Shown: one piece after another, positions 18,299-33,263 of the stretch
Numbering within the stretch: the stretch's first letter is position 1
Layout: each line of letters begins with the position of its first letter
Assembly: GCF_000239295.1 (NCBI RefSeq)
Contig: NZ_JH417825.1
Coordinates: forward strand, 1 to 35,336
Origin: Flavonifractor plautii ATCC 29863
GTDB lineage: Bacteria; Bacillota; Clostridia; Oscillospirales; Oscillospiraceae
Reading direction: 5' to 3'
Length of the DNA: 35,336 nt
The notes under the pieces: generated by a model
Databases searched by the model: none
What the model was told of the DNA's origin: nothing
Seen by the model: only the letters and a program-made list of their open reading frames with translations
Translations under genes and position numbers: made by a program

Positions 18299-18336
18299 GC
18301 AACACCCCGTCTGCCGAACCACAGGAGGGGTGTTGC
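18299..18336 (-). terminator. Hairpin closing the sigma-54 operon
   Basis: A perfect 10-bp stem (GCAACACCCC / GGGGTGTTGC) with an 18-nt loop lies 46 bp after the VOC gene stop. On the minus strand it is followed by TTATATTC, a weak T-rich tail. It is the best terminator candidate for the long catabolic operon. Confidence 0.55.
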
Positions 18337-18381: not shown

Positions 18382-18849
18382 TCAATTGCGCAACCACGCC
18401 TTCTCCAATACTTCTACAATCATCTGCGTCCCAGGCATACGGGCGTAGCAGCATCGACGGTACCCCTTTTCATCCTCGGTCTCCGACTCAAAAATGATCT
18501 CGCCCCCCTGGCCCACGATGAAATCCCGATAAGCCGGGTAGTCCTTGACGTAGTAGGCGGTGTGGTGCATCCCGCCTCCCACCTCATCTACGAAGCGCTT
18601 ATGTTCAATCTCGCCAAAGACGGGCTGGAGCACCTCCAGCTTCAGGCTGTCGGTCCAATCCAGCATGGCGATCCGAATCTGGCAGCCGGAGATTTTCTCC
18701 CCCCAGGCCCATACATTCATGGGTGTGAAGTCGTACACCTTCCCGGCGCCGTCGATCCCGAAGATCTGACGGATCTCCTCCAGCGCCCGGTCCATATCGG
18801 CCACGACGACACCCACATGGCCCACGGGCGGCAGACGGTCAATACTCAT
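18382..18849 (-). CDS. VOC-family protein (glyoxalase/epimerase fold), last gene of the catabolic operon
   Basis: A 155-aa vicinal-oxygen-chelate protein. The likely metal ligands are H11 (GHVGVVV), E72 (LKLEVLQP), H95 (MHHTAYYV) and E146 (MIVEVLE), the layout of methylmalonyl-CoA epimerase and glyoxalase-like enzymes. The N-terminal PPVGHVGVVVADMDRAL is typical. Members use a divalent metal to enolise or rearrange small carbonyl compounds, so an epimerase or isomerase step in the operon's pathway is plausible but not shown. I chose ATG 18849, 8 nt after AAGGAG, over an upstream GTG at 18858. A small GC hairpin (18873-18891) separates it from lplA. Confidence 0.85.
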   Translation of the reverse strand: MSIDRLPPVGHVGVVVADMDRALEEIRQIFGIDGAGKVYDFTPMNVWAWGEKISGCQIRIAMLDWTDSLKLEVLQPVFGEIEHKRFVDEVGGGMHHTAYYVKDYPAYRDFIVGQGGEIIFESETEDEKGYRRCCYARMPGTQMIVEVLEKAWLRN

Positions 18850-18910
18850 ATTATCCACTCCTTGCTGTTAGACGCGGCCTTCCGGGCCGCGCCCTGTTTT
18901 TGATGGGGCC

Positions 18911-19897
18911 TCAGCAGAGCATTAGCCCGCAAAATTCATCCAGGTCCATGTTCTGAAAATATTGCCCGATTTCCCCCGCCGGCACCGCCGCCCGCAGGGC
19001 TTCCTCCCGCAGAGGACAGCCGATCAACCGCTGGGCCAGCTGGTCGGGTTCCTTTCGGGAGAAGAAGTCCCCATAGAAGGACAGCGCCTGGATTGCCCCC
19101 TCCTTCAAATCCAGGCAGACCCGGATCTCGCCGCAGCCCTCTACCCTGCGGCGCTTGTCGATCTGACACCGGGGGGAACTTCCATAGTTCCACTCCCAGC
19201 GGTCGTACACCGCCTGCCGGATACGCTCCACCTGGTTCAGATCCCCCCGATCCAGCTCATAGGGGACTAGGTCACATACCTCTCCCAGGCAGGACCACAG
19301 CCGCTCCATGAAGGATTCTGTGGGCATCGGCTGATGCATATAGGGCTTGATGTTGGTGACCCGGCTGCGCACCGAGGGCAGGCCCTTGGAGGTCAGCTTG
19401 TCCCGGCTGGGAGCCAGCGCTGAGGACACCACGCTCAGGTCAGAGTCATACAGGAGCGTGCCGTGGTGCATCACCCGGCCCTCCTTCACATACTGGGAGT
19501 TGCCCGAAAACTTTCTGCCCCGGATGGTCATGTCATTTCGGCCGTTCAGCTCCGCGGGCACCCCCAGGCTCTCCAGCGCCCAGATCACCGGGCGGCAGAA
19601 GGTGGAGAAGTCAAAGTCGCTGCCCGTATGGTCGGCGATGAAGGTGAAGTTCACGTTCCCCAGGTCGTGATAGACCGCCCCGCCCCCGGACAGCCGGCGG
19701 ACCACTTGAATCTGGTTGGCCCGCACATAGTCGGCGTTGATCTCGGCGAAGGTATCCTGGTGCTTGCCCACCACGATCGTCCGGTCGTTGCGCCAGAGCA
19801 TGAGATAGGACCGGTTCCGAGGCATCTGGTCAAAAATATACTGCTCCAGCGCCAGATTGAAGCGGGGGTCGGTGCTGGGGCTTTGGATGGCACGCAT
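18911..19897 (-). CDS. lplA: Lipoate--protein ligase
   Basis: Activates free lipoate with ATP and attaches it to a lysine of lipoyl domains. The 328-aa protein has RRLSGGGAVYHDLGNVNFTF (67-86), the family's core lipoate/adenylate-binding motif, and K129 in RGRKFSGNSQ, equivalent to the catalytic lysine. A C-terminal accessory domain follows. It lies in the same transcript as E2 and E3, whose lipoyl domains need this modification, so it probably serves this complex. This argues for lipoate scavenging rather than de novo synthesis, since no lipA or lipB is nearby. The E3-like and ligase genes are separated only by a small esterase gene. Confidence 0.95.
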   Translation of the reverse strand: MRAIQSPSTDPRFNLALEQYIFDQMPRNRSYLMLWRNDRTIVVGKHQDTFAEINADYVRANQIQVVRRLSGGGAVYHDLGNVNFTFIADHTGSDFDFSTFCRPVIWALESLGVPAELNGRNDMTIRGRKFSGNSQYVKEGRVMHHGTLLYDSDLSVVSSALAPSRDKLTSKGLPSVRSRVTNIKPYMHQPMPTESFMERLWSCLGEVCDLVPYELDRGDLNQVERIRQAVYDRWEWNYGSSPRCQIDKRRRVEGCGEIRVCLDLKEGAIQALSFYGDFFSRKEPDQLAQRLIGCPLREEALRAAVPAGEIGQYFQNMDLDEFCGLMLC

Positions 19898-19918
19898 CGT
19901 GGCACAGGCTCCTTTCTC

Positions 19919-20488
19919 TCACAGGGATCGAATGAGCGCCGCGGCCGTCTCCGCCATCAGGCAGTGGCCGGCGGCGTTGGGGTGGAGGCCATCCGGCTGA
20001 AAGAGCCCCTCCTCTCCCCATCGGGTGAAGGCCCGGTCGAAGTCCAGGACCGGCAGACGGAAGGCGGCGGCAAAGCGGCGCAGCCAGCTCTGGTACTCGG
20101 CCAGCAGCTCTGCCGCCCGCTCCGGCATCAGCTCCGCCCACTCCCGCCGAATGGGCCGCCGGAGCCCCGGCGGGATCCCGATCAGCGGGAGGCCTCCTCT
20201 GGCGATGATCAGGTGGGCCATGGCCCCCATGTTGGCCCTGGCGCCCGCCAGATCCCCGCCGTAGGCGATATCGTTGGTTCCGCCCATCAGGAGGACCGCG
20301 TCCGGGTGCTCCCGGACCAGCAGATCGGGCAGGACGGCCAGCATACCGCCGGTGGTGTTGCCGTTGACACCCCGGCCCAGCAGCTCCGCCCCGGTCTGGG
20401 CGGCGCACAGCGCCGTCCAGACCAGTCCCCGCGGGAGGCCGAAGCCATAGGTCAGGCTGTCACCCAGGCAGAGGATCCGCCCTGTCAC
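19919..20488 (-). CDS. SGNH/GDSL-type esterase
   Basis: A 189-aa cytoplasmic hydrolase of the SGNH fold, lacking a signal peptide. Block I is LCLGDSLTYG with nucleophile S11, block II a glycine (GVNGNTTGG), block III GGTNDIAYGG, and block V DGLHPN with the catalytic Asp and His. The start is GTG, overlapping the upstream lpdA stop in a GTGA arrangement, so translation is coupled. Its substrate is unknown; release of an ester or thioester intermediate or deacylation are possibilities. Its position between E3 and lplA is unusual for a dehydrogenase operon. Confidence 0.9.
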   Translation of the reverse strand: MTGRILCLGDSLTYGFGLPRGLVWTALCAAQTGAELLGRGVNGNTTGGMLAVLPDLLVREHPDAVLLMGGTNDIAYGGDLAGARANMGAMAHLIIARGGLPLIGIPPGLRRPIRREWAELMPERAAELLAEYQSWLRRFAAAFRLPVLDFDRAFTRWGEEGLFQPDGLHPNAAGHCLMAETAAALIRSL

Positions 20489-22179
20489 AGGGAATTGATG
20501 GCCCGTCCGTTCCAGGCGGCCATAAAGGCCTCGCCCAGGGCCTCGTTGACCGTGGGATGGGGGTGGATGGCATGGATCAGCTCCTCAGCGGTGCCCTCGG
20601 CGGCCATGGCCGCCGAGATCTCACCGATCATGTCGGTGACGTGCTGACCATAGAGGTGAGCGCCCAGGATTTCGCCGGTGTCCGCCGCCACGATCACCTT
20701 GAACAGGCCGTCCGTGTCCCCCGCGATTAGGGACTTGCCGTTGGCCGCCATGTTGAACCGCCCGATCTTCAGCCCGTCGCCGTACTTCTCCCTGGCCTGG
20801 GCCTCGGTGAGGCCGATGCAGGCGATCTCAGGCTCCAGATAGACACAGGATGGGATCCGGTCATAGCGCATCTCCTCCCCTTGGCCGCAGATGTCCGCCA
20901 CTGCCACCATACCCTCGTGGGAGGCGGTGTGGGCCAGCATAACCTTCCCGTTCACGTCCCCAATGGCATAGATATGGGGGATGTTGGTGCGCATATGGGC
21001 GTCCGTCCGGATCGCCTTCCGGTCGAACTCGATGCCGATCCCCTCTGCGTTGAGGCCCTGCGTGTTGGGAACACGTCCCACCGCCATGAGCACCATATCC
21101 GACTTTACCTGGCAGTTCTGCCCCTCAAACTCGTAGTACACCGTGTCGTCCTTCACCCGGCTGACCTTTGCGCCCAGCCGGAACAGGATCCCGTCCTTGG
21201 TCATCCGCTTCTCCGCCAGCCTGGAGACCTCGATGTCCACCATGGGCAGGATATGGTCCATCAGCTCCAGCACCGTCACCTTACTGCCCAGACGGTTCAG
21301 GAGATAGGCGAACTCCACGCCGATCACACCGCCGCCGATCACGGTGACCGAGGCGGGCACCTGATCCAGGTCCAGGGCCTCGGTGCTGGTCAGCAGGTGG
21401 TTTTCCCCCTCCAGCGCGAGGAAGGGGGGCATGAATACGCTGGAGCCGGTGGCGATGATGATGTTGGCCCCGGTGATGCTCCTGCCGTCCACAGACAGGG
21501 TATGGGTATCGGCAAACGAGGCCATTCCCTCCACCACCGTTACCTTATTGCCCCGGAGCAGACCCTTGACGCCGTTGACCAGGGTTTTGACCACGGCTTT
21601 CTTTCTGGCCTGCAAGGCGGCCATATCCACCGCGATCTTGTCCGCCTCCACGCCCGTCACCGCGAAGCGGGCGGCATCCTTCACCTTGTGGTACACGTCG
21701 GCGGTCTGAATCAGCGCCTTGGTTGGGATGCAGCCCACGTTCAGGCAGGTGCCTCCGAAACCGGCCCCCTCGATGATGCAGGTTTTTTTCCCGCACTGGG
21801 CCGCCTTGATCGCCGTCTCATAGCCGCCGGGGCCGGCACCGATCACGACCACGTCGTAGTCGTATCCGGCCGGCTCCGCCGGGGCCGCGGGCGCGGCCTG
21901 GGGGGTGGCGGGGCCGTTGAGGACGGCATTGGGGTCCTCCCCCGGAGCGCCGATCACGGCGATGGGGGTGAACACCTCGGCGAAAGCCCCCTCCTCCAGC
22001 ATGAGCTGGAGGACGGTGCCGTCCGCTGTAGCCTCTACGGGCATGGTGGTCTTGTCGGTGTTAATCTCAAAGAGCACCTCGCCCTTCTTTACCGTTTCAC
22101 CCACCCGCCTGTGCCACTTGACCAACTGGCCCTCGTCCATATTGAAGCCCAGCTTGGGCATGATGATGATCTCTGCCAT
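20485..22179 (-). CDS. lpdA: Dihydrolipoyl dehydrogenase (E3) with N-terminal lipoyl domain
   Basis: Reoxidises dihydrolipoamide on E2 with NAD+. The 564-aa protein has a lipoyl domain at 1-80 (lipoylated K43 in TDKTT), an alanine/proline linker at about 86-105, then the flavoprotein. FAD-binding GAGPGG is at 114-119 and the redox disulfide at C145/C150 in GGTCLNVGCIPTK. The NAD-binding VIGGGVIGVEFA segment comes later, and the C-terminal dimer interface carries H541 and E546 in HPHPTVNEA. A lipoyl-domain fusion to E3 is known in some Firmicute and other complexes. The first 80 residues are nearly identical to those of E2. The esterase start overlaps its stop codon. Confidence 0.96.
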   Translation of the reverse strand: MAEIIIMPKLGFNMDEGQLVKWHRRVGETVKKGEVLFEINTDKTTMPVEATADGTVLQLMLEEGAFAEVFTPIAVIGAPGEDPNAVLNGPATPQAAPAAPAEPAGYDYDVVVIGAGPGGYETAIKAAQCGKKTCIIEGAGFGGTCLNVGCIPTKALIQTADVYHKVKDAARFAVTGVEADKIAVDMAALQARKKAVVKTLVNGVKGLLRGNKVTVVEGMASFADTHTLSVDGRSITGANIIIATGSSVFMPPFLALEGENHLLTSTEALDLDQVPASVTVIGGGVIGVEFAYLLNRLGSKVTVLELMDHILPMVDIEVSRLAEKRMTKDGILFRLGAKVSRVKDDTVYYEFEGQNCQVKSDMVLMAVGRVPNTQGLNAEGIGIEFDRKAIRTDAHMRTNIPHIYAIGDVNGKVMLAHTASHEGMVAVADICGQGEEMRYDRIPSCVYLEPEIACIGLTEAQAREKYGDGLKIGRFNMAANGKSLIAGDTDGLFKVIVAADTGEILGAHLYGQHVTDMIGEISAAMAAEGTAEELIHAIHPHPTVNEALGEAFMAAWNGRAINSL

Positions 22180-22192
22180 GACACTCCTCCAC

Positions 22193-23500
22193 TCACATCA
22201 GAATCTGGATAGGATGCTCCAGCAGCTGCTTCATATACTCCACGAACTGGGAGGCCAGCAGACCGTCAATGACCCGGTGATCCACAGACAGCTGTATGTT
22301 CATCATGGGCCGGATGGCGATGGCGTCCTCTCCGTTCTCGCCGGTGACCACAACGGGGGTCTTGCGCACGGAACTGACCGACAGGATCGCCGATTCGGGC
22401 GCGTTGATGATCGCGGTGAAGTTGCCGATGCCGAACATCCCCAGATTGGAAATGGAGAAGGTACCCTCGCTGTACTCCTCCGGGGCCAGCCGGCCTTCCC
22501 TGGCTCTGGCCACCAGATCCTTGCTCTCCCGTGCCACGTCGGTGAGAGTCTTGTTCTGCACATTCTTAATCACCGGGACGACCAAGCCGTTGTCACCAGC
22601 CACGGCAGTGCCCACGTTGATGGACTTGTAGGTGACGACCTGGTCGTCCTTCAGGGTGACATTGATGCCGGGGAATTTCTTCAGGGCCTTGCAGGCCGCC
22701 ATGGTCAGCAGGTCGGAGACGGCGATCTTTACCTCGCTGGTCTCGTTGAGCCGCTTGCGGAAGGCGGCCAGCTCGGTGGTGTCCACCGCGTCGGTAAAGT
22801 ACAGGTGGGGCGCAGTGAATTTGGACTGGGCCAGCTTCTCGCCGATGATCCTGCGCACACCCTTGTAGGGAACGGCGGAGGCCACCTGTCGGGTGTCCGA
22901 CCCGGCGGAGGCAGGCGCGGCCTTGGCGGCCGCGGCCTCCACGTCGGCCTTCATGATCTTGCCGGCGGCGCCGGTACCCTGGACAGCGGCCAGATCCACG
23001 CCCATTTGCCGGGCCACCCTGCGGGCCAGCGGGGATGCCTTGAGGTCCTTATAGGTGATCCCGCCCTGGAAGCCGGTGCCCTTGATCTGGGTCAGGGAGG
23101 CCGGGTCGATGCCCTCGTCCTGGACCAGCTTTCGGGCCTTGGGTGTCAGTTTCAGAGACTTCATGTCCACCGGCGCGGCAGGGGCCGAAGGAGCGGCGGC
23201 GGGCGCGCTTCCACCGGCCTGCCCCTGTCCGGCGGAAGCCAGGGCGGCATCCGGATCCTCCCCCGGTGCGCCGGTCACGGCGATGGGGGTAAACACCTCG
23301 GCGAAGGCACCCTCCTCCAGAATGATCTTCAGGAGGGTGCCGTCCTCGGTGGCCTCCACGGGCATGGTGGTCTTGTCGGTGTTGATCTCAAAGAGCACCT
23401 CGCCCTTCTTTACCGTCTCGCCCACCTGCTTGTGCCACTTGACCAACTGGCCCTCGTCCATGTTGAAGCCCAGCTTAGGCATGATGACGACTTCAGCCAT
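22193..23500 (-). CDS. Dihydrolipoamide acyltransferase (E2) with two E3-binding domains
   Basis: Transfers the acyl group from thiamine-bound E1 through lipoamide to CoA. The 435-aa protein has a lipoyl domain (1-80, K43), a linker rich in Ala/Pro, and a peripheral subunit-binding domain at 118-153 (LTPKARKLVQDEGIDPASL...GTGFQGGITYKD). A second similar domain at 155-190 (ASPLARRVARQMGVDLAAVQGTGAAG) follows, and then the catalytic domain with HRVIDG (H408, D412). AAGGAGG precedes the start. It is homologous to acetoin-dehydrogenase AcoC and to PDH E2; the acyl substrate cannot be decided from sequence alone. Confidence 0.95.
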   Translation of the reverse strand: MAEVVIMPKLGFNMDEGQLVKWHKQVGETVKKGEVLFEINTDKTTMPVEATEDGTLLKIILEEGAFAEVFTPIAVTGAPGEDPDAALASAGQGQAGGSAPAAAPSAPAAPVDMKSLKLTPKARKLVQDEGIDPASLTQIKGTGFQGGITYKDLKASPLARRVARQMGVDLAAVQGTGAAGKIMKADVEAAAAKAAPASAGSDTRQVASAVPYKGVRRIIGEKLAQSKFTAPHLYFTDAVDTTELAAFRKRLNETSEVKIAVSDLLTMAACKALKKFPGINVTLKDDQVVTYKSINVGTAVAGDNGLVVPVIKNVQNKTLTDVARESKDLVARAREGRLAPEEYSEGTFSISNLGMFGIGNFTAIINAPESAILSVSSVRKTPVVVTGENGEDAIAIRPMMNIQLSVDHRVIDGLLASQFVEYMKQLLEHPIQILM

Positions 23501-23512
23501 TGCGATGCCTCC

Positions 23513-24493
23513 TTACACCATCTCGCGGATCTTGGCCGCGATCTTCTTCTCGTCGGGAATCAGCGGGAACTCCAGCGCGGGGCTGAAGGGCAGGGGCACG
23601 TCGGCGGTGCCCATCCGCTGGATGGGGGCGTCCAGATCATAGAACACGTCGGGCATGATCCGGGAGGCGATCTCGCCGGTGATGCCGAAGCTGAGGTGGC
23701 CCTCGTCTACGATCAGCAGCTTGCCCGTCTTTTTCACCGACCTGATGATTGTCTCGGTGTCCAGGGGCACGATGGTGCGCAGGTCGATCAGCTCGGCGCT
23801 GATGCCCTCCTTCTGTAGCTGCCGGACCGCCTTCTCCGCCTTGATGGTCATCATGGAGTTGGTGACCACGGTGATATCGGCGCCCTCCGTGACGATGCGG
23901 GCCCTGCCGAAGGGGATGCACACATCCTCCTCCACCTCCGGGACATCGTTGAACTTGGTGGTGTAGAGCATCTTGTGCTCAAAGAACATAACGGGGTCGT
24001 TGTCCCGGATGGCGGTCTTGAGCAACCCCTTGCACTCGCCGGCGGTGGAGGGGACCACCACCTTGACGCCGGGGATGTGGGCGGCCCAGGCATGGATGGA
24101 CTGGGAGTGCTGAGCCGCGGAGGAGCGTCCGCCACCCAGGGGCAGGCGCACCACCATGGGCACGTTGCACTGGCCGCCGGACATGTAAGTGATCTTGGCC
24201 ATCTGGTTGAAGAGCTGGTCGCCGCAGACCATCATGAAGTCGGCGAACATCAGCTCCACCACCGGGCGCAGGCCGGTCAGGGCCGCGCCAACGCCCATGC
24301 CCACGAACCCCTGCTCAGAGATGGGGGTATCCTTTACACGCAGATCACCATACTTGTCCCGCAAACCCACGGTGCACTTGAAGTTGCCGCCGATGACGCC
24401 GATGTCCTCGCCCATCTGGAATACGGTATTATCCCGCGCCATCTCCTCGTCCAGGGCCTCCCGGATGGCGTCTCTCACCATCAATTCTCTCAT
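23513..24493 (-). CDS. Thiamine-dependent dehydrogenase E1 beta subunit
   Basis: The beta half of the E1 heterotetramer (acetoin or 2-oxoacid dehydrogenase) that cleaves the substrate on thiamine diphosphate. The 326-aa sequence begins MRELMVRDAIREALDEEM. It carries the activating glutamate E60 in ISEQGFVG, the FADFM region, and a C-terminal transketolase-C domain around LIDLRTIVPLDTETI. The ATG at 24493 follows GGGAGG at 8 nt, and an upstream in-frame start is rejected. It is 20 bp from E1 alpha and 12 bp from E2, so the complex genes are tightly linked. Confidence 0.95.
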   Translation of the reverse strand: MRELMVRDAIREALDEEMARDNTVFQMGEDIGVIGGNFKCTVGLRDKYGDLRVKDTPISEQGFVGMGVGAALTGLRPVVELMFADFMMVCGDQLFNQMAKITYMSGGQCNVPMVVRLPLGGGRSSAAQHSQSIHAWAAHIPGVKVVVPSTAGECKGLLKTAIRDNDPVMFFEHKMLYTTKFNDVPEVEEDVCIPFGRARIVTEGADITVVTNSMMTIKAEKAVRQLQKEGISAELIDLRTIVPLDTETIIRSVKKTGKLLIVDEGHLSFGITGEIASRIMPDVFYDLDAPIQRMGTADVPLPFSPALEFPLIPDEKKIAAKIREMV

Positions 24494-24513
24494 GATCTGA
24501 ACCTCCCTTATTA

Positions 24514-25488
24514 TCAAACAGATGCGGCGATATCTACAAACACATCCTTGTAGGCCTCGGACACGTCGGGATAATCGCTCTCCTCGGCGAACTTACAGAC
24601 CTGGGCGATCTCCTTCTCCACAGAGGCGCGGATCTCTTCAATCTCGCCGTCGCTCAGCAGTCCCTTCTCCTGCAGCACCACCAAGGGCTCGCGGGCCTTC
24701 CATGCGGCCAGCTCTTCAGGGGCGCGGTACTCGCCGGGGTCGCCCACGTGGTGGCCCTGCCAGCGGTAGGTCTTGCACTCGATGAGGGTGGGCCCCTCGC
24801 CCTTGCGGGCCCGCTCAACCGCCCTGGAGACGGCCTCGTACACCGCATAGACGTCGTTACCGTCCACAGCCTCGCCCGGAATCCCATAGCCCTCGGCCCG
24901 CTTATAGAGGTCATGCTCCTTTGTCACCCGGCGGATATCCACCGAAATGCCGAAGAGATTGTTCTCAATAATATAGACGATGGGCAGGTTCCAGGCAGCG
25001 GCCATGTTGATGGACTCATGGAAGGTCCCCTCGTTGGACGCGGAGTCACCGAAAAAGGCCAGGGTGACCTGCTCGGTGCCCCGGAGCTTGGCGGAGTAGG
25101 CCGCGCCAGTGGCGATGGGGATTTCGCCGCCCACAATGCCGTTGGCGCCCAGGATGCCCTTGTCCATGGCCATAATGTGCATGGAGCCGCCCTTGCCCTT
25201 GGAGTAGCCGGTCTTTTTTCCCAGGATCTCGGCCATCATCCGGTCCAGATCGGCGCCTCTGGCCACCAGGTGGCCGTGGCCGCGGTGGGTGGAGCCGATA
25301 TAGTCGTCCTCACGCAGAGCGACACACGCCCCGGCGGCCACCGCCTCCTCCCCCAGATACAGGTGCGCCAGGCCTGGCATCAGGCCCCGCTTATAGAACT
25401 CAAAGACCTCCTCCTCGAAGCGGCGCATCCGGTACATTACGGTATAGAACTGCTTTGCCAGCTCCTTCGGTTCCTTTTTCGTGCTCAT
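24514..25488 (-). CDS. Thiamine-dependent dehydrogenase E1 alpha subunit
   Basis: The 324-aa alpha subunit binds thiamine diphosphate through GDSASNEG...ENN (G147, D148, N177) and contains STHRGHGH near residue 66 and GLAHLYLGEEAV near 39. The ANGIVGGEIPIATGAA block and the HHVGDPGEYR segment resemble acetoin dehydrogenase AcoA more than mammalian PDH E1 alpha, by my recollection of the families. The phosphorylation-loop serines of eukaryotic enzymes are not relevant here. It is the first subunit gene of the complex and lies 50 bp after the SDR gene. A GGGAGG site precedes the ATG. Confidence 0.94.
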   Translation of the reverse strand: MSTKKEPKELAKQFYTVMYRMRRFEEEVFEFYKRGLMPGLAHLYLGEEAVAAGACVALREDDYIGSTHRGHGHLVARGADLDRMMAEILGKKTGYSKGKGGSMHIMAMDKGILGANGIVGGEIPIATGAAYSAKLRGTEQVTLAFFGDSASNEGTFHESINMAAAWNLPIVYIIENNLFGISVDIRRVTKEHDLYKRAEGYGIPGEAVDGNDVYAVYEAVSRAVERARKGEGPTLIECKTYRWQGHHVGDPGEYRAPEELAAWKAREPLVVLQEKGLLSDGEIEEIRASVEKEIAQVCKFAEESDYPDVSEAYKDVFVDIAASV

Positions 25489-25538
25489 ATATTTTACCTC
25501 CCAATGTCAGTTGATGACCCGTTCTCGTTCAGACAAAG

Positions 25539-26276
25539 TCAGCGCATCACCGTGCCGCCGTTGATATCCACGATCATGCCAGTGACATAGCGGCTGTCCT
25601 CGCTCGCCAGGAAGCCCACCACGTCGGCCACGTCTTCAGGGGTACCCAGGCGCCTCATGGGGACCATGTCGTCCCGATAACCGGCGTTGCGGGTCATCTC
25701 GGTCATGATGTAGCCGGGGGCCACCGCATTGACGGTCACCTGATAGGGCCCCATCTCCCCGGCCAGGGACTTTGTCATGCACCAGACCGCAGCTTTGCTG
25801 GCGGCGTAAATCGGCGAGGCGGCCAGGCCGCCCGTCTCGGCGGACTGGGAGGCCATATTGATGATCCGCCCGGCCTTTTTCTCCTTCATGGTGGGGATCA
25901 CCGCCTTGCAGAAGAACACATCGCCCATGAAGTTGATGCCGAAGATTTTGTCCCAGTCGGCCTTGGTGTACTCCACAAAGGGCTTCTTCAGGGACAGGAT
26001 GCCGGCGTTGTTGACCAGCACATCCACCGTACCGAACCGTTCCAGCACCTTTTGCACGGCGGTGTTGACCTGCTCCTCCTGAGAGACGTCGCACTGCACG
26101 GCCATGGTGTCCGCGCCATACTGCCCGGCCAGCTCCTCGGCGGCTGCGACGGCGGCCTCCTGGTTGATGTCCACAATGGCCACCCGCATTCCATCCTTCA
26201 CCAGCCGCGCGGCGATGGCCTTGCCGATGCCCTGGGCTGCCCCGGTCACGATCGCTGCCTTGCTCATAAGCGCCAT
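25539..26276 (-). CDS. Short-chain dehydrogenase/reductase (SDR)
   Basis: A 245-aa NAD(P)-dependent oxidoreductase. The dinucleotide-binding motif TGAAQGIG lies at 11-18, NNAG at 89-92, and the catalytic triad is S143 or S145, Y157 and K161 in the pattern YAASK. It has an ARLVKDGMRVAIVDIN segment with D37 at the end of beta-2, which suggests NAD preference (inference). Close relatives include 3-oxoacyl-ACP reductases, acetoin/diacetyl reductases and sugar-acid dehydrogenases, so the substrate is open. AAAGGAGG precedes the ATG by 8 nt. It precedes E1 alpha in the same operon. Confidence 0.92.
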   Translation of the reverse strand: MALMSKAAIVTGAAQGIGKAIAARLVKDGMRVAIVDINQEAAVAAAEELAGQYGADTMAVQCDVSQEEQVNTAVQKVLERFGTVDVLVNNAGILSLKKPFVEYTKADWDKIFGINFMGDVFFCKAVIPTMKEKKAGRIINMASQSAETGGLAASPIYAASKAAVWCMTKSLAGEMGPYQVTVNAVAPGYIMTEMTRNAGYRDDMVPMRRLGTPEDVADVVGFLASEDSRYVTGMIVDINGGTVMR

Positions 26277-26303
26277 GAGAATCTCCTCCTTTTATCATTG
26301 CGC

Positions 26304-26381
26304 CCAGTCCCGCTCCCCCGGCCAGAGGGATTCCCCCGGCGATCCCCGCCCTTTAAGGCGGGGACAGGCAACCGGGACTGG
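26304..26381 (-). other. Branched stem-loop between the iron ADH and SDR genes
   Basis: An outer 9-bp stem (CCAGTCCCG 26304-26312 with CGGGACTGG 26373-26381) encloses an 8-bp inner hairpin (TCCCCGCC / GGCGGGGA, 26343-26364) in the 112-bp gap. There is no T-run, so it is not an obvious terminator. It could tune mRNA stability between two parts of the operon. Confidence 0.5.
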
Positions 26382-26388
26382 AACGGTC

Positions 26389-27507
26389 TTAAAACAGCTC
26401 CTGATAGATCTTCAGCACCCGCGCCTCGTCCAGAGGGACGAAGTTGTTGGCCATCAGGCGGCCCTGCTCGGTGACCACGCTGTGGGCGAAGACGGGCAGA
26501 TCCTCCCTGGTCACGCCGTACTCGCGGAGGGGCCGCTTGGGCAGGATCTGATCCAGCAGCTTCTCCAGCTCGTCATAGACCACGTCGGGCATACAGCCCA
26601 GCAGGTCGGCCAGATACTGGTTGAGGACTGCAATCTCCCCGTCCCGGCGGAGCTCCATGTAGTTCTTGAGCACCCCTGTAAACATGGCGTAGTTGCTCTC
26701 GCCGTGGGCCACATGATACTTGCCGCCCAGGGGATAGCTGGTGGCGTGGACGGCGGCGCAGCCGGCGGTGCCAAAGGCCAGGCCCGCATAGTTGGAGGCC
26801 AGCAGGAAGTCGTTGAGCAGAGAGAAGCGGCTCTCCGGCCCCTTCTTGGCGATGGTCTGATAGCCCCGAATGATCATCTCAATGGCCTTATAGCCAAAGA
26901 GCTTGGTGTAGGGGGTGGCCTTGGGGGACAGGGCGGACTCCACCGCGTGGACCAGGGCGTCGATGGAGCTGGCGGCGAACACCTTGAACGGCAGGCCCTC
27001 CAGCAGCTGGGGGATCAGCACCGCGTAGTCGGCGTACATGGCGGGGCTGACCAGGCCAAGCTTGGTTCCTATGCGGGTGCGGGCCATGATGGAGATATTG
27101 GTCACCTCGCTGCCCGTGCCGCAGGTGGTGGGGATGATGATCAGCTCCCGCTTCTTTTCCAGATCGGGGGCCTTGTCATAAAGGTCGTCCACCCCCTCGC
27201 CGTCAGAGACGGCCAGCACCTTGGCGATGTCGATCACCGTGCCGCCGCCGATGGCGATCACCCGCTTACATCTGGTCTTGGCCGCGTCGGCCAGGATCGC
27301 ATCCACCATCACGTCGGTGGGCTCCCCGGCGCCATACTTCTCCTGGAAGATCACATGGCAGTTCAGGTTCTCCATACAGCCGAAGTAGGGCTCATAGATA
27401 TAGGCGTTGCTGAGGATCAGGTCGTCTCTGTTGAGGCGGAACGCCTCGGCAAACTCTTTGCAGGTGTCGAAGCCGTACAGAGTCGGCTTCCAGATCATTT
27501 CCAGCAT
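26389..27507 (-). CDS. 4hbD: Iron-containing alcohol dehydrogenase, 4-hydroxybutyrate dehydrogenase-like
   Basis: A 372-aa group III metal-dependent dehydrogenase. The nucleotide-binding motif is GGGTVIDIAK (87-96), and the metal ligands are likely D183, H187, H254 and H268 (SIDALVHAVE ... HATSYPL ... HVAHGE). Segments FQEKYGAGEPTD, IPTTCGTGSEVTN and RPLREYG resemble Clostridium kluyveri 4-hydroxybutyrate dehydrogenase, by my recollection of that sequence. That enzyme interconverts 4-hydroxybutyrate and succinate semialdehyde with NAD. The true substrate here may differ, because the neighbouring genes encode an acetoin-type complex. Fe2+ is the likely cofactor. The start ATG has an AAAGGAA site. 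Confidence 0.85.
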   Translation of the reverse strand: MLEMIWKPTLYGFDTCKEFAEAFRLNRDDLILSNAYIYEPYFGCMENLNCHVIFQEKYGAGEPTDVMVDAILADAAKTRCKRVIAIGGGTVIDIAKVLAVSDGEGVDDLYDKAPDLEKKRELIIIPTTCGTGSEVTNISIMARTRIGTKLGLVSPAMYADYAVLIPQLLEGLPFKVFAASSIDALVHAVESALSPKATPYTKLFGYKAIEMIIRGYQTIAKKGPESRFSLLNDFLLASNYAGLAFGTAGCAAVHATSYPLGGKYHVAHGESNYAMFTGVLKNYMELRRDGEIAVLNQYLADLLGCMPDVVYDELEKLLDQILPKRPLREYGVTREDLPVFAHSVVTEQGRLMANNFVPLDEARVLKIYQELF

Positions 27508-27566
27508 AGCAATGTTCCTTTCTCGATTTCAGAGCGTGATCGGATTTCTCCAGCCTCTCCGCCTGG

Positions 27567-28916
27567 TCACACCAGGCCGAAGAGCATATACAGGGCCACC
27601 GTCAGCACACAGCCCAGCGTCGTCAGGCCGATGTTAGTGACGAAGAAATAGGGATAGGTCTCCTTGGGGGTCTGGTCGGTGTAGATGTTGGCCGTCACAT
27701 AGCCGCCGGAGTGGGGTAGGGAGTCCAGGCCGGCGCCCGCCCAGGTGATGGAGCGGTGGAGGATCTGCGGATCGATTCCCTGCGCCTGACACAGCTGCAC
27801 ATACTGGGGACCAAGGGCCGCCAGGAACACGGACAGGCCGCCGGAGCAGGAGCCGCAGGCCGCAGCCACGATGGCGGTGGCCACGCAGGCAGAGATCAGT
27901 GGGTTCATATCCAGGCTCAGTGCGAATTCCTTGACCAGCTCGAAGCCATGGGATCCCTGGACTACGCCGCCGAAGCCGGTGACCACGGCGGTGTTCATCA
28001 GGGCGATCAGGCTGTTGGTGGCCGTATCATTGACCGAATCGCGGAAGGCGTGGATCCGCTTGTGGAACAGGGCAAAGGCCAGCAGGCAGCCCAGGGCCAG
28101 GGACTGGATGACGATGTAGTTGGTGCTCCAGGTGACAGCGTCCTTCAGCACCTGCTGCATCACAAAGATATACAGCACCACGAATAAGATAGGAATGACA
28201 GCCAGACCGAAGGGCAGCATCCCGGTGCGGTCGGAGATATCGATGGCCTCCAGATCGTCTTTTCGTCCGGGGACGAAGCCGATGCCGGCCGCCTTCAACC
28301 GCTTGTCGTTCCACTCCAGCCATACCATGCTCAGAGCGAAGATGATGCAGGAAACAACGATACCGTTGAGGGGAGCAGCGTAGGCCGTGGTTCCCAGTAC
28401 CTCAGTGGGCATGATATTCTGGATCTGTGGGCTGCCCGGCAGGCCCACCATGGTGAAGGAGGCACAGCCGGCGAACAGCGCCGCAGGGAACAGCCGCTTG
28501 GAGACGTTGCCCTCCTTGAACAGAACCAGAGCGATCGGGTACAGGGTGAACACCACCACGGCAAAGCTGACGCCGCCATAGGAGAGGACGGCAGAGGTGA
28601 TAACCACAATCAGCAGGGCCCGCTTGCTGCCCATCAGATCCACGATTTTACAGGCGATGGATTTGGCCGCACCGCTGCTCCCCATCAGTGCGCCGAACAG
28701 CGTGCCCAGGAAAAACATCAGGAAGTAGTCGCCCGCATAGTTCTTCATAAAGGTTCCGTAGTGGGTGCTCAGCGCCTCCCAAAGGTCCATGCGGTTGGTG
28801 ATGACGACAACCAGCGCGCCCACGATGGACGTGGGGATCATGCCCCAGCCTTTAAAGCCCATCATGATCAGGACTGCCAGCCCCAGGACCAGGCCCAGTA
28901 TGGAGATAATGTCCAT
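27567..28916 (-). CDS. GntP-family permease
   Basis: A 449-aa integral membrane transporter with about twelve helices, of the GntP/CitMHS-related group that takes up gluconate and other small hydroxy acids with protons. The N-terminal MDIISILGLVLGLAVLIMMGFKGWGMIPTS, the SVLSYGGVSFAVVVFTLYPI region and the GSCSGGLSVFLAALGPQY segment (glycine-rich, before PHSGGYVT) fit the family. Its place between the zinc and iron dehydrogenases indicates that it imports the operon substrate, probably a short hydroxylated acid; this is an inference. A GGGAGG-type site precedes the ATG. Confidence 0.93.
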   Translation of the reverse strand: MDIISILGLVLGLAVLIMMGFKGWGMIPTSIVGALVVVITNRMDLWEALSTHYGTFMKNYAGDYFLMFFLGTLFGALMGSSGAAKSIACKIVDLMGSKRALLIVVITSAVLSYGGVSFAVVVFTLYPIALVLFKEGNVSKRLFPAALFAGCASFTMVGLPGSPQIQNIMPTEVLGTTAYAAPLNGIVVSCIIFALSMVWLEWNDKRLKAAGIGFVPGRKDDLEAIDISDRTGMLPFGLAVIPILFVVLYIFVMQQVLKDAVTWSTNYIVIQSLALGCLLAFALFHKRIHAFRDSVNDTATNSLIALMNTAVVTGFGGVVQGSHGFELVKEFALSLDMNPLISACVATAIVAAACGSCSGGLSVFLAALGPQYVQLCQAQGIDPQILHRSITWAGAGLDSLPHSGGYVTANIYTDQTPKETYPYFFVTNIGLTTLGCVLTVALYMLFGLV

Positions 28917-28963
28917 GATTCTCCTCCCTCTTTATTTGCAGACTTGTTTTAATCGTTTCGGGG

Positions 28964-30004
28964 TCACTGCGTCTCGATGATTACCTTGGTGTCCAGGCCG
29001 CGGGCGGCCTTCATGGCCTCAAAACCCGCCTGGACCTCCTCCAGTTTGATGCGGCGAGAGATGTATTTCTTCACGGAGATCCGGCCAGAGGCCATGGCGC
29101 TGATAACGGTCTTGAATTCATCGAAGTTGTGGCCCTTGCTGCCACGGAGGAGCACCTGCTTGAGCACCAGCCGCTCATAGTCCAGAGGGAACTGAGCATG
29201 GGGCAGGCCCACGGCGGTGGCCCGCATATAGAACTCCGGCTTGAGGGCGCGCAAGCCGGTGTTGAAGGCGCTGGGCACCCCCACGCAGTCAATCAGCAGG
29301 TCATAGCCGCCCCCCGAGATATCCAGCAGCTGCTGCTCCAGGTCGGGGGCGTCGGCAGCCACCACATGGTCAGCCACCTGATAGCCCCGGATGATCTCCC
29401 GCTTCTGGGGGTTGAGCTCTGAGACGGTGATCTCACTGGCGCCGAAGGTTCTGGCCCACTCCGCGCAGCTCATGCCAATGATCCCGCCGCCCAGGATGAG
29501 CACCCTGTCGTTGGGCTTCACCTGACTGACCTGGATGGCATGAAGGCCCACCGCGAAGGGCTCGGCCATGGCTCCCTCCTCGTTGGTCACATTATCCGGA
29601 AGCTTGACCAGACTGTGGGGGAACCAGGTGGTGTACTGGCTGTAAGCGCCGGGATGGCCCAGCTCGCCGCCCTTCCAGGTGAAGACCCTGCGGTTGGTGC
29701 AGTGGTCCCAGTCGCCAGCCAGGCATGCCTCACAGTGGCCGCAGGGCTCCTGACATACGTTTTGGGTGTACCCGGCCACCCGGTCGCCCGGCTTGAGGGC
29801 CCGGTTGGTGCCTGGGGCCACTACGACGCCTGAGTACTCGTGTCCGATGACCACCCCACGGTATCGCTCGCCCTCGTGCCAGTAAGAGGTATCCGTGCCA
29901 CAGACGCCAACATGGGTCACCTGGAGCACCGCGCATCCATTGCTTTTCAGCTCTCCTTCCCGGATCTCGAACCGCTCGTTGCCGCTCAAAACGGCATACT
30001 TCAT
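28964..30004 (-). CDS. Zinc-dependent alcohol dehydrogenase (MDR family)
   Basis: The first gene of the operon. The 346-aa medium-chain dehydrogenase has catalytic zinc residues C35 and H55-E56 in the GHEYSG motif, a structural zinc lobe with C88, C91, C94 and C102 (plus C84), and the NAD-binding GGGIIGMS loop near residue 165-175. Relatives include L-threonine, sorbitol and (R,R)-butanediol dehydrogenases; sequence alone does not decide between them. The ATG at 30004 has a GGGAGG site 8 nt upstream; longer upstream frames are not supported. It lies about 94 bp from the sigma-54 start site. Confidence 0.93.
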   Translation of the reverse strand: MKYAVLSGNERFEIREGELKSNGCAVLQVTHVGVCGTDTSYWHEGERYRGVVIGHEYSGVVVAPGTNRALKPGDRVAGYTQNVCQEPCGHCEACLAGDWDHCTNRRVFTWKGGELGHPGAYSQYTTWFPHSLVKLPDNVTNEEGAMAEPFAVGLHAIQVSQVKPNDRVLILGGGIIGMSCAEWARTFGASEITVSELNPQKREIIRGYQVADHVVAADAPDLEQQLLDISGGGYDLLIDCVGVPSAFNTGLRALKPEFYMRATAVGLPHAQFPLDYERLVLKQVLLRGSKGHNFDEFKTVISAMASGRISVKKYISRRIKLEEVQAGFEAMKAARGLDTKVIIETQ

Positions 30005-30109
30005 CGTGATCGCCTCCCATTCTTTCGATTTGTCCCCGTGGGTCCTGCTCCGCCAGCAAACGGGGACGGTCATCTGCGTACCGCACCCGGTCTTGTTTTT
30101 GATAAACAC

Positions 30110-30124
30110 GCAAATGCCATGCCA
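30110..30124 (-). promoter_or_regulatory. Sigma-54 (-24/-12) promoter of the catabolic operon
   Basis: On the minus strand TGGCATGGCATTTGC matches the -24 GG and -12 GC elements with exactly 10 nt between the GG and GC dinucleotides. It lies 106 bp upstream of the zinc dehydrogenase ATG, downstream of an enhancer array and of a gene for a sigma-54 activator. Confidence 0.88.
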
Positions 30125-30195
30125 ACTCTTCCCCTCCGCAAACCCTTGAAAAACCAAGGCAAACCGGGACTTCTCTGCCCCAGTGCGCCACAGGA

Positions 30196-30271
30196 GTGTG
30201 CCACATATGTGACAAAAACTGTGACACAGCCGCACATGGCGCACAGTTGTGTCACAGTTTCATTTGTGTCA
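30196..30271 (-). promoter_or_regulatory. Enhancer array for the sigma-54 activator
   Basis: A perfect 12-bp inverted repeat (AACTGTGACACA 30217-30228; TGTGTCACAGTT 30248-30259) has its arms 31 bp apart centre to centre, about three helical turns. More half-sites flank it: TGTGTCA at 30265-30271 and a TGTGCCACATATGTGACA element at 30198-30215 with an internal CACATATGTG palindrome. All lie 75-160 bp upstream of the -24/-12 promoter, the usual distance for activator sites. Confidence 0.75.
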
Positions 30272-30280
30272 TACGGTATA

Positions 30281-32251
30281 TCAGATCCGATGCGAGCTGT
30301 AATCGATGTGATACCGTTGGAGCTTTCGATATAAAGTTCTTCGGCTGATGCCCAGCAAGCGGGCCGCCTCCATGACGTTCCCGTGGGTGCGGTGGAGCAT
30401 GTCCTGGATCCGCGCCGCCTCGTCCTCCCCCTCGCCCCCAGAGGGGGACTCTCCCGCCGCCGCGGGCACAGCCGGCGAGGGCGCCGATCCCTGGAAGGCC
30501 CGGACCTCCGGCGGGAGCTCGGCGGCGGTGACCAGTTCCCCCTCGGCCAGGTAGACCGCCCGCTCCACGCTGTTCTCCAGTTGGCGCACGTTCCCCGGCC
30601 AGGGGTATGCCTCCATCATGGCCAGGGCCTCGGCCGTGAAGCCCTCCACCCTTCCTCCAGGACGAATGTCACTGTACTTGGCCAGGAAGAAGCCCGCCAA
30701 CTGCCTCACGTCTCCCGTCCTCTCCCGCAGAGACGGGATATTGATCCGAAAGACATTGATCCGGTAAAACAAATCCTCCCGGAAGACTTTGCTGTCCACC
30801 AGCTGCTCCAAATCCCGGTTGGTGGCAGTTATCACCCGCACGTCGATTCTCAGCGCCTTGGAGGCCCCGATCCGGCGGACTTCTCGGTTTTGGAGCACCC
30901 GCAGCAGGGTGATCTGGACATCCACCGGCATATCCCCGATCTCGTCCAGGAAGATCGTCCCGCCGTTGGCCAGTTCGAACTTGCCCGCACAGCCGTCCCG
31001 CCGGGCCCCAGTGAAACTCCCGCCCTCATAGCCGAACAGCTCGGCCTCGATCAGGCTCTTGGGCAGTGCGCCGCAGTTGACTGCGATGAAGGGCCCCCGG
31101 CGACGGGAGCTGGCGTTATGTATGGCCTGGGCAAAGAGCTCCTTGCCCGTGCCGCTCTCTCCGGACAGGAAAACCGAGGCGTCGTTCTGGGCGGCGATCT
31201 TGGCCATGCGCACTGCCTCCCCCATGGCCGGAGAGATGCCGATGATGTCCTGGAATCTGAAATGGGCTTCGTTGCCCATAATGTTGTTGACCCGCTTGTG
31301 AAGGCTGGACAACTGCTCAATCTGCGCCACATACTCCTGGTGGCCGGTGCTCTCCACCGACAGGGAGATGGTGTGCTTGCCCTCTCCCCGCTCGAAGGAG
31401 ATGGTGCGGTTGGATAGGGAGGTCTTGATATCCTCCGCCGTGACCGCCCCACATCCCAGCACCTCCAGAAAGTCAGCTCCGCTTAGCTCAGCCGGAGCGA
31501 GGGCCAGCTGCCGAGTGGCCTGTGTATTAAAGGCTACCACATGGAGGGACTCGTCCAGCAGACACATGGCCGTGGGCACCGTCTCGATGATAGCGGACAA
31601 GTTGCGGTAGCTCTTGGACAGCTGGTCGTAGGCATCTTTCAGCTTCAGTTGCCGAGAAATGGCATCTGCTGCGGCCACCACCATGCCCAGAGTGTGATCG
31701 TTCACATGCTCCGCCATGCCGGACAGGCAGACCACGCCGCCGATGTCTCCATCGGGCAGAAAGACCGATGCGCCGGAGCAAGCCCAGTTGGCATGTACCT
31801 CGTAGTAGTGCTCTGCCCCAAAGACTTGGAGGGGGATCCGGTCCACCAAGACCGTGCCGATCCCGTTGGTGCCCAGCCGGGATTCGCTGCGGCAGGCCCC
31901 CTTGACCAGCCCGTTCTCCCGGGCGGTCCGGGAGATGTCCTCGTCCCCCCGGGCGTAGAGGATATAGCCCTCCTCGTCACTGAATAGCAGCAGAAACTCC
32001 GAGCCCCGTATGAAATCGTACAGCCCATCCAGATAGGGGAAGGCCACCTGACACAGACTGTTCCGCCGGGCGATCCGCTCCTCCACGGCATCCAGTGGCA
32101 GGATCTCCTTATTCCCGTGCTCCATGGGCACATGGGACCCCCAGCAACGTTTCCACGACCGTAGGATCTCCGGCCGTACCGCCTCGTCCGGGATAGGAGT
32201 ACCGCTGCGCAGGAAATTCTTTGCCTCTTGGATTAATCGTTGACTCGTCAA
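30281..32251 (-). CDS. Sigma-54-dependent transcriptional activator, AcoR/DhaR type
   Basis: A 656-aa enhancer-binding protein that activates sigma-54 RNA polymerase by ATP hydrolysis. It has an N-terminal GAF-type sensor region (about 50-200), a PAS-like region (about 220-310), and an AAA+ domain with Walker A GESGTGKE at 364-371, the sigma-54 contact loop as GSFTGA (411-416, usually GAFTGA), and Walker B GTIFLDE (431-437). A Fis-type helix-turn-helix sits at 626-648 (NVMEAARLLGISRRTLYRKL). The likely start is TTG 32251, 9 nt after AAGGAG; a GTG at 32281 is the alternative. It should sense the operon's substrate and bind the enhancer array just downstream of its stop codon. The promoter is at 32317-32345. 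Confidence 0.94.
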   Translation of the reverse strand: MTSQRLIQEAKNFLRSGTPIPDEAVRPEILRSWKRCWGSHVPMEHGNKEILPLDAVEERIARRNSLCQVAFPYLDGLYDFIRGSEFLLLFSDEEGYILYARGDEDISRTARENGLVKGACRSESRLGTNGIGTVLVDRIPLQVFGAEHYYEVHANWACSGASVFLPDGDIGGVVCLSGMAEHVNDHTLGMVVAAADAISRQLKLKDAYDQLSKSYRNLSAIIETVPTAMCLLDESLHVVAFNTQATRQLALAPAELSGADFLEVLGCGAVTAEDIKTSLSNRTISFERGEGKHTISLSVESTGHQEYVAQIEQLSSLHKRVNNIMGNEAHFRFQDIIGISPAMGEAVRMAKIAAQNDASVFLSGESGTGKELFAQAIHNASSRRRGPFIAVNCGALPKSLIEAELFGYEGGSFTGARRDGCAGKFELANGGTIFLDEIGDMPVDVQITLLRVLQNREVRRIGASKALRIDVRVITATNRDLEQLVDSKVFREDLFYRINVFRINIPSLRERTGDVRQLAGFFLAKYSDIRPGGRVEGFTAEALAMMEAYPWPGNVRQLENSVERAVYLAEGELVTAAELPPEVRAFQGSAPSPAVPAAAGESPSGGEGEDEAARIQDMLHRTHGNVMEAARLLGISRRTLYRKLQRYHIDYSSHRI

Positions 32252-32316
32252 GATCGTAAACTCCTTTCTTGATGTCCCCACGGCCCCATATCCCAGGGTC
32301 CCGCTAAAATAATATT

Positions 32317-32345
32317 ATTGTAGCAAGGTAACATATAAAAATCAA
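32317..32345 (-). promoter_or_regulatory. Sigma-70 promoter of the activator gene
   Basis: TTGATT (32345-32340) and TACAAT (32322-32317) are spaced by 17 bp, giving a leader of about 60 nt before the TTG start. An AATAATATTATT palindrome lies just downstream of the -10. Confidence 0.7.
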
Positions 32346-33050: not shown

Positions 33051-33263
33051 TTACGATACTCCGTAGTTAGATCTGGGGAAATTTGATATACTGGATTTGA
33101 GCCATTCGTAACGCCTTTCTGCTACCCCCCTTATGGTTATCCCACCTAAGAGGTAGCGTTTATTTCAGATGCTGACAATGGCTCATTTTAATTCGCCATT
33201 AGGGCGCTCACATTTTGGGTAGCCTTTGCTACAATTTTTATTTTGCCGAAAACACTTTTGGCC

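Follow-up and report, generated by a model that had tools for sequence, protein, structure and literature searches.

The acetoin dehydrogenase system AcoABCL/AcoR is one of the closest described systems to the locus reported here, an eleven-gene operon of Flavonifractor plautii ATCC 29863 that lies within a stretch of 35,336 nucleotides (nt) of contig NZ_JH417825.1 (the whole stretch is called the window hereafter). Both have the gene order E1a-E1b-E2-E3 for a dehydrogenase complex, a lipoate ligase, a sigma-54 activator and a -24/-12 promoter. Unlike AcoABCL/AcoR, the operon has a putatively separate E1 clade that is linked to 4-hydroxybutyrate (4HB) genes, an iron-type alcohol dehydrogenase (Fe-ADH) of the 4HB type, a GntP permease, an SGNH hydrolase and two further dehydrogenases. 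The available text of a survey of sigma-54 regulation in Clostridiales describes AcoR-acoABCL, for acetoin, and separately XanR with abfD-nifU-hyp-ach-golB, and contains no mixture of both (PMC6615313). A second related system is the 4HB branch of gamma-aminobutyrate (GABA) fermentation; it shares with the operon an Fe-ADH of the same family, and homologues of AbfT and AbfD are encoded in the same genome, but succinic semialdehyde would arise here from acyloin cleavage and not from an aminotransferase.

The third is a side reaction of pyruvate dehydrogenase that leads to 4,5-dihydroxyhexanoate in succinic semialdehyde dehydrogenase deficiency and mitochondrial disease. According to the accessible part of a 2026 preprint, porcine pyruvate dehydrogenase supplied with pyruvate and succinic semialdehyde forms a keto-hydroxyhexanoate acyloin, and a dehydrogenase, not identified there, is presumed to convert this acyloin into 4,5-dihydroxyhexanoate. 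The latter was first detected, as threo and erythro isomers, in patients with succinic semialdehyde dehydrogenase deficiency, is seen in healthy people too and is raised in mitochondrial disease; its fate (catabolism, reclamation or a dead end) is left open in the preprint (PMC12918946). The same compounds and the same thiamine diphosphate (ThDP) chemistry are proposed for the operon. However, the pyruvate dehydrogenase reaction is accidental and runs in the forming direction, whereas the operon would encode a dedicated cleaving pathway.

We tentatively propose, as the leading reading, that the operon is induced by, and serves to break down, a carboxylated acyloin or the corresponding diol, the best candidate being 4,5-dihydroxyhexanoate (acyloin form 4-hydroxy-5-oxohexanoate). 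The link of the operon to the 4HB pathway is well supported; that the complex cleaves an acyloin is what we infer, and the exact substrate is the least certain part. Literature searches, in which subscription papers were mostly outside coverage, found nothing that joins acetoin dehydrogenase with succinic semialdehyde and 4HB dehydrogenase, or with 4-hydroxybutyrate, butyrate and the gut; acetoin dehydrogenase and 4-hydroxybutyrate dehydrogenase occur jointly in two papers, which concern Bacillus or Bacillales to judge by their listing.

Linkage of the complex to 4-hydroxybutyrate genes

A scan of named genomes with the ThDP-dependent E1 alpha subunit (E1a, assigned by profile searches and a tree; 24514..25488, on the minus strand, as are all the operon features below) gave 109 relatives, and the best 80 of the 109 were kept as loci. 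The group comprises 43 loci (L072-L114) and the controls 37 (L115-L151), which are the next-best relatives and not a random set; L and G numbers are labels of loci and genomes in the comparison sets, and flanks of up to 10 kb were read on each side. In an E1a tree of 88 rows, which contains no validated AcoA sequence, the window, L072-L114 without L113, and L018, which belongs to the same metagenome-assembled genome (MAG) as L072, formed one clade of 44 rows (support 97/98); L113, without any 4HB gene, sits just outside it. The clade includes members of Bacillota and Spirochaetota as well as MAGs labelled Planctomycetaceae, and the E1 residues special to the group include Lys33 of E1a and Lys62 of E1 beta (E1b).

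An Fe-ADH of the window's kind, a 4HB CoA-transferase or a 4HB-CoA dehydratase was found in seven of the 43 group loci (L072, L074, L075, L076, L080, L082 and L099) and in none of the 37 control loci (p 0.013). The Fe-ADH occurs at L074, L075, L076 and L099, the CoA-transferase homologue at L072, L074, L076, L080 and L099, and the dehydratase homologue at L080, L082 and L099; the last two stand together in L080 and L099, and one of them alone in L072, L074, L076 and L082. In Anaerosalibacter (L080), a piece of an activator, the dehydratase (6848-8299), the CoA-transferase (8679-9959) and E1a (from 10001) are arranged in this order on a single strand, with about 40 nt between the last two. In G019, the Oscillospiraceae MAG with the closest E1a (L072, 89-90% identity), the CoA-transferase immediately precedes E1a on the same strand (L051), and on another contig (L050) an Fe-ADH directly follows an activator, at the contig end. 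Within 20 kb, Bacilliculturomica massiliensis (L099) holds 8 of 12 window gene families, and its locus contains a short-chain dehydrogenase/reductase (SDR, 44%), a VOC protein (34%), a zinc-type alcohol dehydrogenase (Zn-ADH, 33%), the activator, E1a, E1b, E2 and the Fe-ADH (51%), as well as the dehydratase and the CoA-transferase. The VOC homologue sits there between SDR and Zn-ADH, and an open reading frame (ORF) of 98 residues that matches only the E3 lipoyl domain is followed by a 130-nt run of N; GntP, SGNH, LplA and a full E3 were not seen in this region.

A beta-hydroxyacid dehydrogenase of the tartronate-semialdehyde-reductase type was present at 12 further group loci and at none of the 37 controls; when it is counted too, 19 of the 43 group loci are linked, against 0/37. 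It never shares a locus with the Fe-ADH (12 and 4 of 43, respectively), and we suggest that either one can serve, in place of the other, to reduce the aldehyde half. The reductase labels (for L072, Fe-ADH was assigned via the other contig of its MAG, L050) changed four times each on the E1 tree, and 93 and 94 of 500 shuffles were as low; hence, which reductase a locus carries is not tied to its position in this tree.

The Fe-ADH of the operon (26389..27507) is, among solved chains, most like PDB 30sm, named "Cvir-Hbd2" (E 1.5e-146; next chain 5.4e-29). Over residues 2-370, this chain does not differ from the Fe-ADH of G132 (L052), where the gene stands in a row with an aminotransferase (by eye), followed by one opposite-strand gene and then the 4HB-CoA dehydratase. 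Since the window enzyme is 62% identical to this protein, whose locus holds the dehydratase, it most likely reduces succinic semialdehyde, and we annotate it as a putative 4HB dehydrogenase/succinic semialdehyde reductase. The dehydratase was present in six of 12 clustered Fe-ADH loci (L052-L056 and L058), four of which also carry the 4HB CoA-transferase; L047 and L048 (own genome), L049, L050, L057 and L059 are without it. L052, L054 and L055 carry a class III aminotransferase too (GABA-type, by eye), which is the layout of GABA fermentation. In the Fe-ADH tree, the Aco-linked enzymes of Eubacterium (L074, L076) group with five dehydratase-linked ones (98/94), and the window enzyme falls in a neighbouring group of six (100/99); the fork joining both groups has a support of 88/92, and L099 and L058 branch off at an open fork and belong to neither. 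The first-pass annotation had doubted that acetoin would explain the permease and the 4-hydroxybutyrate-type enzyme, and the solved kin, neighbours and tree of the Fe-ADH bear out this doubt.

The score of the Fe-ADH against the 4HB dehydrogenase equivalog NF058672 (107.6 bits) is below its cut-off of 500, and those against the sulfoacetaldehyde reductase and ErcA models (146.8 and 139.7 bits) are higher, and also below their cut-offs. We rejected a function as sulfoacetaldehyde or lactaldehyde reductase because the NCBIfam scores fall far short of the thresholds and both the solved relative and the gene neighbourhood point elsewhere. No paper on Cvir-Hbd2 itself was found in literature searches. 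We take "Cvir" to be Clostridium viride; this organism ferments 5-aminovalerate, and a five-carbon semialdehyde is therefore possible as the substrate.

The genome to which the window belongs (3.82 Mb, 242 contigs) has matches to both further 4HB enzymes on contig C200: one is 78% identical to the dehydratase query from L053, which is most like PDB 1u8v (E 3e-225), and the other 74% to the CoA-transferase query from L051, whose nearest solved chains are 4HB CoA-transferases. This contig also carries a NifU-like gene and a PAS-containing regulator (by eye). The region L163 (5795-10789) holds the CoA-transferase, a glycerol-dehydrogenase-like Fe-ADH, the NifU-like gene and the dehydratase (order by eye), a set that resembles the XanR regulon abfD-nifU-hyp-ach-golB in the available text of the survey (PMC6615313).

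With the L053 query (E <= 1e-60), the dehydratase was found in 35 of 41 group genomes, that of L113 being one of the six without it, and in 15 of 37 control genomes. After two control genomes that also hold a group locus were dropped, the comparison was 35/41 against 13/35 (Fisher p 1.6e-5). A further 14 of 290 other genomes of the class encode the dehydratase, and none of these has an E1a at E <= 1e-120 (overlap of the samples judged from genome labels), which would fit a complex that is an optional input to the 4HB route. Two further Fe-ADH paralogues of the window genome, 75% identical each, lie in other activator-linked clusters, and several inducible inputs may therefore converge on one 4HB-to-butyrate module.

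The first of these clusters (L047 1277-8882, contig C112) combines its paralogue with an acetolactate-synthase-like ThDP enzyme, a symporter-like gene (by eye), an SDR and a divergent sigma-54 activator; it is perhaps a second, differently built 4-hydroxybutyrate input, with a 2-oxoacid decarboxylase or acyloin lyase. The other (L048 3947-16827, contig C120) has the third paralogue, two GntP permeases, two activators, an acetoacetate-decarboxylase-family protein and a degradative-type 3-hydroxy-3-methylglutaryl-CoA reductase (TIGR00532, 500 bits), and looks in part like mevalonate catabolism.

Several observations weigh against the proposed reading. Neither an AbfT nor an AbfD homologue lies on the window contig (C209), hence neither is in the operon. 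Shared descent confounds part of the dehydratase count, as Family XIII-like bacteria abound in one half of the clade (the other is mixed), and 13 of 35 control genomes also hold this gene. Of the 30 group loci whose flanks are long enough (4 kb or more ahead of the E1a start and 6 kb or more behind it), 17 show neither the Fe-ADH nor the beta-hydroxyacid dehydrogenase. Other genes of the operon are not confined to the group: Zn-ADH of the window's kind occurs in 4/43 group and 5/37 control loci, SDR in 6/43 and 2/37, LplA in 15/43 and 6/37, SGNH in 5/43 and 1/37, and GntP in 0/43 and 3/37 (L122, L129 and L132, where the GntP match ends about 50-70 nt before the E1a match). SDR and Zn-ADH are found together in 4/43 group loci (in L102 weakly) and also in control L131, and VOC is limited to one group locus (L099; 0/37 controls). 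In Treponema (L075), the locus has genes for an AtoDA-type CoA-transferase and a thiolase (by eye) in place of the 4HB pair. A DddP-like M24 enzyme in 12/43 group loci (0/37 controls) and a cupin in 9/43 are partners that the proposed reading does not explain. Finally, no window gene names the substrate, and the Zn-ADH and SDR are generic.

In summary, the permease, lipoate ligase, SDR and Zn-ADH go with Aco-type complexes generally, and the Fe-ADH, CoA-transferase and dehydratase are the link that is specific to the E1 group.

The M24 enzyme was seen at L075, L077, L083, L088, L093, L096, L097, L098, L105, L108, L109 and L111, as well as at L050 and, as a piece, in L076, often accompanied by the beta-hydroxyacid dehydrogenase, a double cupin and a sodium symporter. 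The copy of L105 scores 112 bits against the DddP model (cut-off 600), and 11 other group copies are 73-79% identical to it; the best match in the window genome is only 32%.

Probable sigma-54 control and gene content of the operon

The first-pass annotation had described eleven closely spaced minus-strand genes behind a -24/-12 promoter, with an AcoR-type activator upstream, and both descriptions held. Profile searches of the window ORFs confirmed all eleven genes (30004-18382), with gaps, in order, of 47, 59, 112, 50, -4, 12, 13, -4, 21 and 61 nt. The AcoR/DhaR-like activator (30281..32251) has GAF, PAS, sigma-54 AAA+ and Fis helix-turn-helix domains (Pfam) and the GSFTGA motif; its ORF reaches GTG 32281, and the start is more likely TTG 32251, which is preceded by AAAGGAG.

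The promoter TGGCATGGCATTTGC (30124-30110) is the sole exact TGGCAN6TTGC match of the whole window, although such a match is not rare by chance (shuffle mean 0.45; at least one in 36 of 100 shuffles). Among the 38 of the 43 group loci that entered the promoter comparison, 24 had a -24/-12 site scoring at least 17/18 no more than 400 nt upstream of E1a, compared to 47 of 1900 random stretches drawn from the same loci. Three TGTGAC/GTCACA words, candidate activator sites picked out by eye (30208..30256), lie in the 277-nt intergenic stretch before the operon, and 40 were counted over the 38 upstream stretches of relatives (random mean 4.3, maximum 13 in 500 draws). As both the promoter site and these words recur before the E1a of relatives, sigma-54 control of the operon is very likely real. 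A perfect 10-bp inverted repeat (30257-30248/30228-30219), followed by TTTTT, was picked out by eye downstream of the activator and may also be the end of its transcript.

Separate promoters or terminators between the genes, which would speak against a single unit, were not found. All minus-strand terminator-like matches within the operon lie inside ORFs (the scan covered loops of 3-8 nt only), the hairpin located between LplA and VOC lacks a minus-strand T-run, and a minus-strand scan for sigma-70-like promoters inside the operon gave no match. A single transcript for the eleven genes is a prediction. A stem-loop with a 10-bp stem and a T-rich tail (18299..18336, by eye) is the likely terminator after the last gene.

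The complex itself consists of adjacent E1a, E1b, E2 and E3 of the pyruvate dehydrogenase superfamily, which, together with the sigma-54 activator and the -24/-12 promoter, is the build of an Aco operon. E1b (23513..24517) has a TTG start with a 4-nt overlap with E1a, and an ATG is also present at 24493; E2 (22193..23500, from profile searches) is an acyltransferase with one lipoyl domain, and E3 (20485..22179) a dihydrolipoyl dehydrogenase with an N-terminal lipoyl domain, above the cut-off of TIGR01350. The best family models are those of pyruvate dehydrogenase E1 alpha/beta and E2. E1 alpha (370.4 bits against TIGR03182, cut-off 393.85) and E2 (359.5 bits against TIGR01349, cut-off 445) score below their cut-offs; E1 beta is above that of the subfamily model NF006667 (386.7 vs 321 bits) but below that of NF008854. 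Gene content and the recurrence of the promoter in relatives support the earlier view of a sigma-54 catabolic operon around an Aco-type complex. As to its acetoin-type label, the Aco type stands, and the centre shifts to an E1 clade tied to the 4HB pathway.

Over 87 residues, the lipoyl domains of E2 and E3 share 86% identity, a sign of recent duplication or of gene conversion.

Proposed pathway and alternative substrates

Membership of the complex in an E1 clade with ties to the 4HB pathway makes succinic semialdehyde, and not acetaldehyde, its probable aldehyde product. If the Fe-ADH is a succinic semialdehyde reductase, the substrate is best explained as an alpha-hydroxyketone ending in CH(OH)-CH2-CH2-COO-, of which 4-hydroxy-5-oxohexanoate, from 4,5-dihydroxyhexanoate oxidised at C5, would be the simplest. 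The functions of the gene products can be arranged accordingly only as a proposal. Uptake of the hydroxy acid would be by the GntP-family permease (27567..28916; PF02447, 48.8 bits, above cut-off; 47.6 bits against the gluconate symporter model TIGR00791, cut-off 292.75). The SGNH/GDSL hydrolase (19919..20488, domain match) would be a lactonase or esterase, possibly opening the gamma-lactone of the substrate; this lactone, solerole, appears in the accessible part of a further paper (PMC7510106). The outer, secondary hydroxyl of the stereoisomers would be oxidised by the Zn-ADH and the SDR, the latter providing a second stereospecific oxidation. The Zn-ADH (28964..30004) is a zinc-type medium-chain alcohol/polyol dehydrogenase by profile searches, without a close solved relative, and starts at ATG 30004 behind GGGAGG, a longer GTG ORF having been rejected as the start; the SDR (25539..26276) is closest to the FabG type in profile searches. 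The VOC (Glyoxalase_4) protein (18382..18849, ATG start 18849) would perhaps be an epimerase or isomerase, and lipoate-protein ligase A (LplA; 18911..19897, domain match) would keep the complex lipoylated.

The complex would then cut the alpha-hydroxyketone to an acyl-CoA (acetyl-CoA for the best candidate) and succinic semialdehyde, which the Fe-ADH would reduce to 4-hydroxybutyrate, taking up electrons, and the CoA-transferase and 4-hydroxybutyryl-CoA dehydratase encoded elsewhere in the genome would lead via crotonyl-CoA to butyrate. The net reaction would be C6H11O4- -> acetate + butyrate + H+; by arithmetic, the two electron pairs that are set free are both consumed again, an exact redox balance. 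A more far-reaching form of the proposal, which we regard as possible but on the unlikely side, is the dedicated catabolism of 4,5-dihydroxyhexanoate and its 5-keto form: the complex would reverse the accidental acyloin reaction of pyruvate dehydrogenase and turn a metabolite of human mitochondrial disease into acetate and butyrate, and members of the same clade with other reductases would clear other acyloin by-products. We know of no described pathway for 4,5-dihydroxyhexanoate, although no search was aimed at its bacterial degradation.

The chief rival is ordinary catabolism of acetoin or 2,3-butanediol, in which the Zn-ADH and SDR would yield acetoin, the complex acetyl-CoA and acetaldehyde, and the Fe-ADH ethanol. 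It accounts for the Aco type of the activator and the complex, and AcoR-acoABCL is a predicted sigma-54 regulon in Clostridium in the available text of the survey (PMC6615313). The SDR resembles acetoin reductase and budC, though it is closer to the FabG type, the Zn-ADH is weakly like R,R-butanediol dehydrogenase, and the pairing of these two beside an Aco-type complex outside the clade, at L131, fits as well. However, acetoin needs no carboxylate-type permease, the kin of the Fe-ADH adjoin 4HB genes and its sole close solved relative has a hydroxybutyrate-dehydrogenase-like name, and 4HB genes recur at the loci of the E1 group and at no control locus. We consider this explanation unlikely.

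The same cleavage could also act on a different compound: an acyloin or diol of succinic (or glutaric) semialdehyde that is higher or carries other substituents, and whose acyl half is not acetyl. Nothing in the sequence fixes the acyl half, and 4,5-dihydroxyheptanoic acid is named as a possible product of the same kind in the accessible part of the preprint (PMC12918946); but the operon has no gene for the processing of a longer acyl-CoA, and acetyl gives the simplest balance, which makes such a substrate rather improbable. We consider it very doubtful that the complex acts on a 2-oxoacid, as a dehydrogenase of the pyruvate or 2-oxoglutarate type, next to alcohol dehydrogenases that serve unrelated functions within one operon. 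The pyruvate dehydrogenase models are the best matches, but E1-alpha and E2 fall below the cut-offs, such an enzyme supplies no aldehyde to the Fe-ADH, and sigma-54 control and the 4HB linkage across the group misfit a housekeeping pyruvate dehydrogenase.

Two further kinds of candidates were dropped. The formation of succinic semialdehyde from 2-oxoglutarate by the complex was set aside since a 2-oxoacid dehydrogenase yields an acyl-CoA and the operon is without an acylating reductase. Aromatic-ring (hydroxybenzoquinone) cleavage, quinate, inositol and catechin-derived gamma-valerolactones were considered too, and the loci singled out none of them as substrates.

Distribution, origin and significance

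The operon is rare and patchy in its distribution: the family sample holds a single close relative, and no E1a match at E <= 1e-30 was found in five other genomes of the genus. At E <= 1e-120, E1a was detected in 1/391 genomes of the class and 2/394 of the order (own genome counted in both), and a search of 298 plasmid records gave only matches under 60% identity. The comparison of gene order among related genomes that the first-pass annotation had proposed had a mixed outcome. The order is not kept in the family, where an E1a of more than 53% identity occurs in just one of the 299 other genomes, G019, whose two contigs that were read show no SDR, Zn-ADH or GntP of the window's kind. The core does recur across phyla, as the E1a-E1b-E2-E3 block, the activator (28/43 group loci) and the promoter, and L099 has the larger gene set described above.

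Horizontal acquisition of the operon is possible. The stretch upstream of the activator (32282-33468) is low in GC, at 49.6% compared to 61.5% for the window and 62.5% for the operon.

This stretch holds a broken transposase-like remnant, IS21-type IstA by eye and without a Pfam match. The next ORF (33469-35328) encodes, in a single frame, an ABC ATPase domain and, towards the C-terminus, a segment that matches energy-coupling factor (ECF) substrate-specific (S) components, an unusual ECF transporter fusion. Two Planctomycetaceae-labelled MAGs (L077, L079, L142, L146) each have one clade and one non-clade E1 locus, and both encode a 4HB-CoA dehydratase, 72% identical; their loci reflect either wide transfer or mis-binned contigs.

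If the proposed reading is true, some complexes of anaerobes that would be annotated as acetoin or pyruvate dehydrogenases feed a 4-hydroxybutyrate route instead, and gut bacteria own a butyrate-forming route from acyloin acids. They could then alter the levels of the biomarker 4,5-dihydroxyhexanoate, and the operon supplies enzymes for testing whether this compound is catabolised.

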